This document shows positions 14,440 through 50,135 of a stretch of 64,000 nt of DNA, one piece after another. The notes under the pieces were generated by a model. It searched no databases, had not been told where the DNA came from, and worked only from the letters and a program-made list of their open reading frames with translations. The stretch spans positions 412,501-476,500 of the forward strand of contig NZ_JAQIIO010000001.1 of the NCBI RefSeq assembly GCF_027891095.1. Direction: 5' to 3'. A program made the position numbers and the translations under genes. The stretch comes from Aliiroseovarius salicola (GTDB lineage: Bacteria; Pseudomonadota; Alphaproteobacteria; Rhodobacterales; Rhodobacteraceae). Positions within the stretch are counted from its first letter, which is position 1. The number at the start of each line of letters is the position of its first letter.

Positions 14440-15039
14440 TTAACGGCGCTTTTGTGTTTCCAGATGGATCGAGAACAAGGAAGATCCCAGCGTGCCGCCG
14501 GTCTTCAACTCGCCTAGAATCATCGTAACTTCCGATCCGGCATTATCGGTGATCACCCATTGACGCAGCTGGGTCGGATTTGCGGTGAACATCAGTTTGA
14601 TACTGCCGTATTCGGGGTTGTCGGGGTCCTGTGCCGTGACAACCGTAGACGTTCCATCAAAACCGTGCCCCGTCACCATTTTAGCGCGACCCAGGTTGAC
14701 ATTCTTGGCCAAGACAACGGAGAGGGGCGTTTGCTTCAACGGGTACTGAGACGGGCCAGAGTTGGATTTTCCATCAAAAACAGCAACTTGCGAGCTTCCG
14801 ACCACAACCAGAGCATCCATTGGCGGATTATACTCAAACCGCGCCCGGCCGGGGCGTTTGATATAGATGGTCCCGGTCGAGATCGTGCCATCATCATTTA
14901 GCTGCGTGAATTCAGCTTCTGCTGTCTTCAGGCCATTGAGATAGGCCGAGATGTCACCCAGTGATAGCTTCTCGGCCAAAGCCGGAACGGAACTGATCAT
15001 CAGGGCGCCTGCGGCGATCATCATGCGAAGTGCGGTCAT
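14440..15039 (-). CDS. lolA: Outer-membrane lipoprotein carrier protein
   Basis: Protein of 199 aa starting at MTALRMMIAAG, with AGGTAGG in the leader; an upstream in-frame extension to 15165 would lack a signal peptide at its start and crosses the promoter region. The Sec signal ends at about VPALA-E (residues 1-23). The mature LolA fold shows the hallmark AEFTQLNDDGT then GTIYIKRPGRARFEY. LolA shuttles triacylated lipoproteins through the periplasm from LolCDE to the outer membrane. Three 32-bp-spaced AT-rich repeats occur 131-207 bp upstream. FtsK, two genes away, is a common neighbour in this family. Confidence 0.9.
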   Translation of the reverse strand: MTALRMMIAAGALMISSVPALAEKLSLGDISAYLNGLKTAEAEFTQLNDDGTISTGTIYIKRPGRARFEYNPPMDALVVVGSSQVAVFDGKSNSGPSQYPLKQTPLSVVLAKNVNLGRAKMVTGHGFDGTSTVVTAQDPDNPEYGSIKLMFTANPTQLRQWVITDNAGSEVTMILGELKTGGTLGSSLFSIHLETQKRR

Positions 15040-15164
15040 ACATCCTACCTCTTTATTCGGGTCCAGTTTGCCCGGTTTGTGAGAAGGATTTAACCCCGAA
15101 CCCAACGTGATAGGCGATAACATGCGCGTGTCATGGAAAATCGCCCGACATTTCGGGATCCGCA

Positions 15165-15249
15165 CAAAACTTTAAACTCTTCAAACACCGGACCCGGCAA
15201 AGTTTAAAATCTTTAACAGGCTGAAATCCAAAACTTTAAATTCTTTAAT
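15165..15249. repeat. Three 12-bp direct repeats with 32-bp period upstream of lolA
   Basis: CTTTAAACTCTT (15170), GTTTAAAATCTT (15202) and CTTTAAATTCTT (15234) begin exactly 32 bp apart, close to three helical turns. Flanking bases are also similar (CAAA before, CAA or TAA after). They lie between the ridA stop and the lolA start. The regular phasing suggests a binding array on one face of the helix; the factor is unknown. Confidence 0.7.
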
Positions 15250-15298
15250 GGGGCTGCGAATTTGACGGCGGCACACATCGGGCCACCGCCAATTCGCG

Positions 15299-15646
15299 TC
15301 ATTCGTCGTAAGCGGCTGTGATGATCACTTCGACCTTCAGCTCGGGGCTGGCGAGATGGGCCGACCCACAGGCACGCGCCGGGGCATGGCCTCTGGGCAC
15401 CCAATTGTCCCAGACCGCATTCATTTCGTCGAAGTCTTTCATGTCATCAAGCCAGATTATGGCCTGCAGCATTTGCGATGACGAAGAGCCAGCCTCTTCG
15501 AGAAGCGCCTCAATCCGGGCCAGACATTCGCGGGTCTGGTCCGCCACGCTGTCACCCCGGATACCAACCTGGCCACAGAGATAAACCACACCCTTGTGTT
15601 TGACGATCTTGCTCATGCGATCGCTGGTATAACGTCGTTGGATCAT
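15299..15646 (-). CDS. RidA/YjgF-family protein
   Basis: Protein of 115 aa covering one RidA domain: GVVYLCGQVGIRGDSVADQ, then LDDMKDFDEMNAVWDNWV and the arginine-containing APARACGSAHLASPELKVEV. RidA enzymes deaminate reactive enamine/imine intermediates from PLP enzymes; Arg in the ARACG segment corresponds to the catalytic arginine position. It sits 79 bp downstream of ftsK in the same direction, and a PLP aminotransferase lies just upstream of ftsK, so a protective role is plausible. Family firm; subgroup not determined. Confidence 0.87.
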   Translation of the reverse strand: MIQRRYTSDRMSKIVKHKGVVYLCGQVGIRGDSVADQTRECLARIEALLEEAGSSSSQMLQAIIWLDDMKDFDEMNAVWDNWVPRGHAPARACGSAHLASPELKVEVIITAAYDE

Positions 15647-30324: not shown

Positions 30325-30353
30325 AAAAAAAGCCCGGGCATGAAAGCCCGGGC
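30325..30353 (-). terminator. Intrinsic terminator of the CenR-type gene
   Basis: Stem GCCCGGGC (30332-30339) with its perfect match at 30346-30353 and loop ATGAAA. Read leftward it is followed by TTTTTTT. It lies 80 bp past the response-regulator stop. Confidence 0.9.
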
Positions 30354-30432
30354 CAGTCTGACAGGGAGGATGTGCCATAACCCTGGCACGTGGGATTTCT
30401 TGCGCCTGATCCCCGGCGCTAAAGGTCTTTGG

Positions 30433-49905: not shown

Positions 49906-49982
49906 GGCCCCGTGGCTCAACTGGATAGAGCAGCCCCCTCCTAAGGGGCAGGTTGCAGGTTCGAATCCTGCCGGGGTCGCCA
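49906..49982 (+). tRNA. tRNA-Arg (anticodon CCT)
   Basis: Acceptor GGCCCCG (49906-49912) pairs with CGGGGTC (49972-49978) with one G-U. D-arm GCTC/GAGC; anticodon stem GCCCC/GGGGC enclosing loop CTCCTAA, so the anticodon is CCT (reads AGG). T-arm GCAGG-TTCGAAT-CCTGC. Discriminator G and an encoded CCA follow. It lies 42 bp after the LacI gene. Confidence 0.93.
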
Positions 49983-50059: not shown

Positions 50060-50135
50060 TGGTGCCTCAAGAGGGACTCGAACCCCCGACCTTGTCCTTA
50101 CGAAGGACCTGCTCTACCAGCTGAGCTATTGAGGC
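50060..50135 (-). tRNA. tRNA-Thr (anticodon CGT)
   Basis: Read leftward: acceptor GCCTCAA (50129-50135) pairs with TTGAGGC, discriminator A, encoded CCA (50060-50062). Anticodon loop TTCGTAA gives CGT (reads ACG). T-arm GGGGG-TTCGAGT-CCCTC has one G-U pair; the first anticodon-stem pair is a mismatch (G-A). Convergent with the tRNA-Arg gene. Confidence 0.92.

Follow-up and report, generated by a model that had tools for sequence, protein, structure and literature searches.

What recognizes the three evenly spaced AT-rich repeats that lie between ridA and lolA in Aliiroseovarius salicola, and is lolA their target? Within the window (the whole stretch of 64,000 nucleotides that was analysed), the three copies are real, with the sequence and coordinates given by an earlier sequence-only reading, and they follow one another at a step of exactly 32 bp. 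That reading took the repeat to be 12 bp long; the natural unit, however, is a 15-bp paired palindrome, TTTAAA-N3-TTTAAA, which is present here with 1-2 mismatches and which, together with 17-bp spacers, gives the 32-bp register (Table 1). The units have a GC content of 13%, compared with 56% for the spacers and 57.5% for the window as a whole. The distance from the first repeat to the lolA ATG, 131-132 bp, is also as originally claimed.

Table 1. Features of the lolA array, its surroundings, and the candidate partner gene (window positions unless a contig is named)
Feature	Position	Strand	Remarks
Array unit nearest lolA	15171..15185	- (strand of array-model match)	TTTAAA-N3-TTTAAA, 1 mismatch
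First 17-bp spacer	15186..15202		GC-richer; unconserved in orthologs
Middle array unit	15203..15217	-	32 bp from first unit
Second 17-bp spacer	15218..15234		Unconserved in orthologs
Third array unit	15235..15249	-	32 bp from second unit
Complete array by model R1	15166..15252 = G000:C1:427666-427752	-	E 1e-18
Stretch between array and lolA	15107..15128		Counterparts can be identified in array-less congeners; probably the promoter region of lolA
lolA (PF03548)	14440..15039	-	Neighbour of the array; candidate target at most
ridA-type gene (PF01042, Endoribonuclease L-PSP)	15299..15646 (start approximate)	-	Stop 49 bp from array
Candidate Phd/YefM gene, G000	C1:18129-18605		On the contig of the lolA array, outside the window

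A ladder of paired palindromes

A search for two units in the 32-bp register, allowing up to 3 mismatches, finds no place in the window other than the lolA array, which it matches as 2 overlapping pairs; in 100 dinucleotide shuffles of the window it finds nothing. Likewise, when a pattern for the unit is derived from the three lolA sites, it has 3 matches where 0.05 would be expected. TTTAAA by itself is about as frequent in the window as composition predicts (6 copies versus 5.9 expected); the unusual feature is the ladder arrangement, rather than single units or TTTAAA alone.

The same ladder recurs throughout the A. salicola genome (G000, 3.58 Mb). A sequence model, R1, was made from 18 of the arrays of this genome, which consequently match it by construction; of the 20 arrays that it detects, 19 are strong (E no higher than 5.7e-13) and one is weaker (1.6e-6). 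If units are counted singly, with 2 mismatches at most, the excess is modest, 80 matches versus 63 for a reversed control pattern, and many of the 80 are rungs of ladders with 32-bp steps. Within the 18 model arrays, 29 of 36 gaps are 32 bp, 6 are 31 bp, and 1 is 33 bp, as tallied by a procedure that permitted these three values only. A strict automatic chain places three units in 16 of the 20 arrays and one unit in the other 4; by weight matrix, these 4 also contain three units, which are weaker or differently oriented.

Two regulators of alphaproteobacteria, CtrA and CenR, also have repeat-type sites, but their motifs differ from the array unit. The CtrA site is TTAA-N7-TTAA. In the consensus obtained from 54 units the TTAA elements are 5 bp apart (N5 rather than N7), so a CtrA regulon is rejected, in agreement with the sequence-only reading. 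The CenR site is TGA-N8-TGA, and the main text of the paper that reports it makes no mention of lolA (PMC9275681); a CenR regulon is rejected as well, since the 54-unit consensus does not have this repeat.

Conservation of the ladders in Rhodobacteraceae

When R1 is run against 61 genomes at E 0.001, six are matched. Besides G000 itself, these are three congeners with strong arrays, G013 (Aliiroseovarius lamellibrachiae DSM 104669), G019 (A. crassostreae CV919-312), and G007 (UBA2553, by match positions); G033, which belongs to another genus; and G015, with one weak match (E 2.2e-5). Against 394 genomes of the family at E 1e-5, seven are matched: G000, G033, G342 (Paenihalocynthiibacter styelae MYP1-1), G285 (A. 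subalbicans N1Y82), G396, G080, and G077, the last by a single match at E 9.5e-6. (This survey scored 11 candidates per genome, and its array counts are lower bounds.) In eight such genomes the two-unit pattern is present at 1 to 35 forward places each, and the reversed control is present at none. The exact two-unit pattern identifies 24 stretches in named genomes, 14 in Rhodobacteraceae and 10 elsewhere; the 5 of these 10 that were inspected consist of four simple repeats and one isolated pair. Two-unit arrays are also seen in Thalassobius sp. I31.1.

The number of units per array is typical of each genome. G013 arrays (n=19) have four units in 12 cases, three in 5, two in 1, and five in 1, and G019 arrays (n=18) have three units in 13, two in 2, and one in 3. 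Among the arrays fetched from other genera, all 4 in G033 have two units, while in G342 two units are found in 9 of 11 and three in the other 2.

The loci themselves are largely shared. Flanking DNA is common to the 20 G000 array loci and the fetched loci in 17 of 20 cases for G013 (19 fetched) and in 18 of 20 for G019 (18 fetched), and in 10 aligned sets of orthologs the units and their phase are mostly kept as the spacers diverge. The sequence-only reading had proposed precisely this comparison for the lolA locus, and there, in both A. lamellibrachiae and A. crassostreae, the phase of the repeats is indeed retained while the sequence between them varies. Between ridA and lolA, G000 and G019 have 260 bp and G013 has 244 bp; 15 of 17 array-less congeners have 104-105 bp there, with no unit (at the other two loci ridA is not matched). 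The gap before serA shows a similar difference, with 136-149 bp in four array genomes versus 66-70 bp in 15 of the 17 array-less congeners; the remaining two have gaps of 96 and 144 bp with no visible array. (The upstream neighbour of serA lacks a Pfam match, and its designation as serC is our own reading.) Because arrays also adjoin serA in G033 and G080, and because an array between convergent SDR and GTPase genes is also present in G396, some arrays predate the genus and have probably disappeared from the array-less clade, a polarity that we infer.

The presence of about 20 copies in one genome, and the greater length of the gaps that hold an array (244-260 versus 104-105 bp at lolA, 136-149 versus mostly 66-70 bp at serA), would also be expected if the arrays were dispersed copies of a mobile repeat of the MITE or REP kind. 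This origin is very unlikely, given that only the units are alike, with no conserved ends outside them and with spacers that differ among copies, and given that the arrays occupy orthologous positions across species (G013, G019) and add a length that varies by site. In addition, searches of plasmids (2 queries), phages (1 query), and viral contigs yield no array match.

An orphan Phd/YefM protein accompanies the ladders

The sole divergent array of G000, together with its counterparts in G013 and G019, adjoins the gene for a protein of 146-183 aa with a Phd/YefM domain; the array ends about 10 bp ahead of the start codon of this gene. A profile built from the G000, G013, and G019 proteins, and thus from three of the nine array-bearing genomes, was used to search 48 genomes. 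All 9 array-bearing genomes contain a homolog, as do 2 of the 22 other genomes (G025 and G027); none of the 17 array-less congeners does. The co-occurrence of array and homolog has a Fisher P of 3e-8 by genome and 7e-5 by genus, values that ignore kinship and that count G015 and G077 (one weak array match each, no homolog) as array-less; otherwise the score for array-bearing genomes becomes 9 of 11. An array immediately precedes the homolog in G000, G013, G019, G007, G033, G342, G080, G396, and G285, and in all of these except G396 its nearest unit begins 22-26 bp ahead of the homolog's start codon. In G285 the frame of the homolog is broken and only one array is detected elsewhere at E 1e-5 or better, with the pattern search returning the same single place; decay fits this combination, and an assembly error could too. 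The related Phd protein of G027 is without the signature shared by the others, and the 230 bp upstream of its gene contain no such array.

The fold assignment is based on several comparisons. Relative to the PF02604 cut-off of 29.8 bits, the homologs score 36.7 (G000), 33.2 (G013), 40.6 (G019), 35.6 (G007), 36.6 (G025), 33.1 (G396), 42.1 (G080), and 31.8 (G342); that of G033, at 24.5 bits, falls below it. The NCBI prevent-host-death antitoxin model matches 7 of 7 homologs tested, two of them just under its cut-off, and the best solved relative is antitoxin RelB chain 9g12 (E 4.7e-5). All nine intact homologs have an N-terminal Phd/YefM domain followed by an invariant G..(N/D)P.TG motif. In 7 of the 9, the last 20 residues include 2-4 Trp and 4-8 Arg/Lys; the exceptions are G080, with no Trp, and G033, with one, so that neither tail is Trp-rich.

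In a type II toxin-antitoxin module, the toxin gene is next to that of the antitoxin. Here gene calls show no common neighbour directly downstream of the homolog, and six small downstream ORFs have no match to a toxin family in Pfam, linked genes being covered. On plasmids, the candidate proteins match nothing beyond two short Streptomyces Phd/YefM sequences, and the four that were tested with PADLOC have no match there. Searches of the open-licence PMC literature yield no report of these arrays, nor of any orphan Phd protein that has many sites on the chromosome.

Taken together, these comparisons argue that the roughly 20 chromosomal ladders, the lolA array included, are very probably paired with this orphan Phd/YefM-fold protein and are probably its binding sites. 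The original suggestion that equal spacing at three helical turns points to a DNA-binding protein is supported. Dimers of the protein would sit on each paired palindrome, and the recurrence of 2-4 units at three helical turns would align adjacent dimers along a single helix face, where the ladder could be filled cooperatively. By occupying the ladder just ahead of its start codon the protein would act as an autorepressor, and at the remaining ladders it may have a chromosome-wide role. The distribution of the protein also bears on the absence of the repeats from close relatives, which the sequence-only reading had regarded as grounds for abandoning its interpretation. The lolA repeats are in fact missing in the 15 array-less congeners in which the locus can be measured. 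However, because all 17 array-less congeners are also without the candidate protein, this absence fits the loss of a whole system rather than repeats that arose by chance.

YefM and Axe each recognize paired TGTACA palindromes, spaced 12 bp apart, ahead of the genes that encode them (PMC4803016, PMC7730913), and theirs is the closest design among known operators. The system described here resembles YefM-YoeB and Axe-Txe in having a Phd/YefM DNA-binding domain and paired 6-bp palindromes upstream of the protein's own gene. In contrast to these operators, whose TGTACA centres are 12 bp apart, the cores are mostly TTTAAA with 9 bp between centres; in addition, no toxin gene was found in the searches above, the pairs are repeated 2-4 times in a 32-bp register, and there are about 20 further arrays along the chromosome. 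Toxin-less antitoxin genes are usually taken as leftovers; here one is paired with multi-unit sites across a chromosome, a pairing that rests on co-occurrence and on a prediction tested in a second genome.

A changed core at constant spacing

That prediction concerns G025, where the TTTAAA model R1 has no match even though a homolog is present. Two copies of CCGTTTTGTAC lie upstream of the homolog exactly 32 bp apart, the second of them 25 bp before the ATG. The core of this ladder is GTTTTGTAC, which is unlike TTTAAA, and the 32-bp step is the same. (This core is the only one to contain TGTAC, close to the TGTACA of YefM and Axe, PMC4803016 and PMC7730913.) In a 400-kb sample of the genome, the G025 core recurs at a step of 32 bp in 9 pairs and, weakly, at 31 bp in one more, compared with 0, 0, 1, and 0 pairs at four control spacing sets. 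The pairs make up 8 loci of 2-3 units, of which 2 are convergent, 1 is divergent, 1 is intragenic, and 4 are tandem. (At 8 loci per 400 kb, the 5.1-Mb G025 genome would hold roughly 100 arrays, several times the Aliiroseovarius number.)

The spacing can also be seen when no motif is specified. In a motif-free spectrum of 90 spacings, 32 bp takes first place in G025 at every k used (8, 9, and 10). In G013 it is first at k = 8 and 10 and fifth at k = 9, whereas G008, a genome that lacks the homolog, puts it 43rd, 29th, and 38th. (The spectrum leaves out multiples of three; a version with all spacings is swamped by codon periodicity.) The G025 pairs and these ranks indicate that the core and the protein have changed while the 32-bp geometry has remained constant, and this combination of fixed spacing and changing core is a clear case of coevolution between a protein and its site.

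The joint change of core and Phd-like protein in G025 is left unexplained if the ladders belong to some other binder and the Phd-like gene is merely one of its targets. An octamer of the Lrp/AsnC type would be an example of such a binder, as operators of the Ss-LrpB type comprise several palindromes of about 15 bp at intervals of about three helical turns, a spacing and symmetry that the arrays resemble. A survey of the stronger matches gives 11-18 AsnC-domain matches per genome. Their co-occurrence with the arrays, however, does not support this family: the one group among these listed matches that seems specific in five genomes has close orthologs (73-88% identity) in 9 array-less congeners and is absent from array-bearing G007 and G033. 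The arrays differ from Ss-LrpB operators as well in the number of their sites over the whole chromosome, and a binder of this kind is considered improbable. (An AsnC-family gene does adjoin an array in G019, on C10, and lies about 7.5 kb from one in G000, on C32; its distribution does not track that of the arrays.)

Placement and possible function of the ladders

If the orphan Phd/YefM protein occupies the ladders, their placement may indicate its role. In G000, 8 arrays lie between convergent genes, 10 between tandem genes, 1 between divergent genes, and 1 within a gene. (An automatic table had left four of these open and had called the intragenic array convergent; they were settled from further gene context and orthologs.) The intragenic array is in an rlmL-like methyltransferase gene (C23:117669-117755) and is present in G019 also. 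Compared with the intergenic regions in 400 kb of G013 and in 400 kb of G008, the 8 convergent arrays among 19 intergenic ones are an excess (P 0.002-0.008), and the single divergent array is a deficit (P 0.001-0.02). A cruder background, taken from the window only, gives P 0.04-0.41 for convergent and P 0.02-0.06 for divergent arrays; it was replaced because its gene calls were incomplete (77.7% coding; ridA was not called). The genes next to the arrays are functionally mixed. The occurrence of one ladder at about 20 such places, including convergent and intragenic ones, speaks against a regulator specific to lolA, which had been the initial interpretation.

Many arrays come shortly after stop codons and their units are self-complementary, as would be the case for RNA elements that form hairpins or terminators at gene ends. 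Yet the complementarity between spacer halves is no better than that of recombined halves in five genomes (P 0.097, 1.0, 0.18, 0.80, and 0.79), the best full dyad, in G342, reaches only P 0.050, and arrays are found in both gene orientations as well as inside a gene, which makes a function in RNA hardly credible.

On any one contig, consecutive arrays are at least 45 kb apart in G000, G013, and G019 (P 0.036, 0.035, and 0.005), although these genomes are related and the three tests are not independent; mean log gap gives a weaker result (P 0.09, 0.14, and 0.04). Such evenness is absent in G342, which has one 4-kb gap, and in G033, which gives no signal. The orientation of arrays appears uniform on some contigs and could not be tied to replication.

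The same protein and ladders could constitute an ordinary global transcription regulator, with ladders at start codons blocking or tuning transcription and convergent ladders acting on read-through or antisense transcripts. This is a distinct possibility, though not the favoured one. A ladder directly precedes the protein's own gene; in G000, G033, and G080 one stands close upstream of serA, and in G013 and G285 one stands close upstream of a glutathione S-transferase gene; and Phd/YefM proteins are autorepressors (PMC4803016). Regulation of neighbouring genes is less easily reconciled with the 8 convergent and 1 divergent positions among the 19 intergenic arrays of G000, with intragenic arrays in G000/G019 and G025, or with the mixed functions of the neighbouring genes.

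For the ladders other than that at the protein's own gene, chromosome anchoring or structuring is favoured over such regulation because of the placement of the arrays and the Trp/Arg-rich tails, although its likelihood is put slightly short of even; titration and other roles account for the rest. SlmA, Noc, and MatP each have tens of short specific sites on the chromosome that are not confined to promoters. The ladders are similar in being specific sites that number in the tens over the chromosome and extend outside promoters, as seen in the convergent excess, the divergent deficit, and the intragenic cases. They differ from the sites of SlmA, Noc, and MatP in their multi-unit form and in the fold of the protein, and they are not known to influence division or folding. 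Hints of an architectural function come from the tails of 7 of 9 intact homologs and from array distances that stay at 45 kb or more in the related G000, G013, and G019. A tentative picture, and one that may well need revision, is that a toxin-less protein of antitoxin fold has become a chromosome anchor that fastens onto tens of ladders, most of which lie at gene ends; the Trp/Arg-rich tail may tie these to the membrane or to each other, with a species-typical number of rungs (2, 3, or 4) and with site and protein evolving together. With a candidate gene named, the ladders and their proposed protein could represent a new system of chromosome organisation or global regulation in Rhodobacteraceae.

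Elsewhere in the window there is a match to Rfam SorX, a singlet oxygen resistance sRNA, at 30326-30396 on the minus strand (63.2 bits), and two tRNA genes lie on opposite strands 83 bp apart, at 49906-49979 (+) and 50063-50135 (-).
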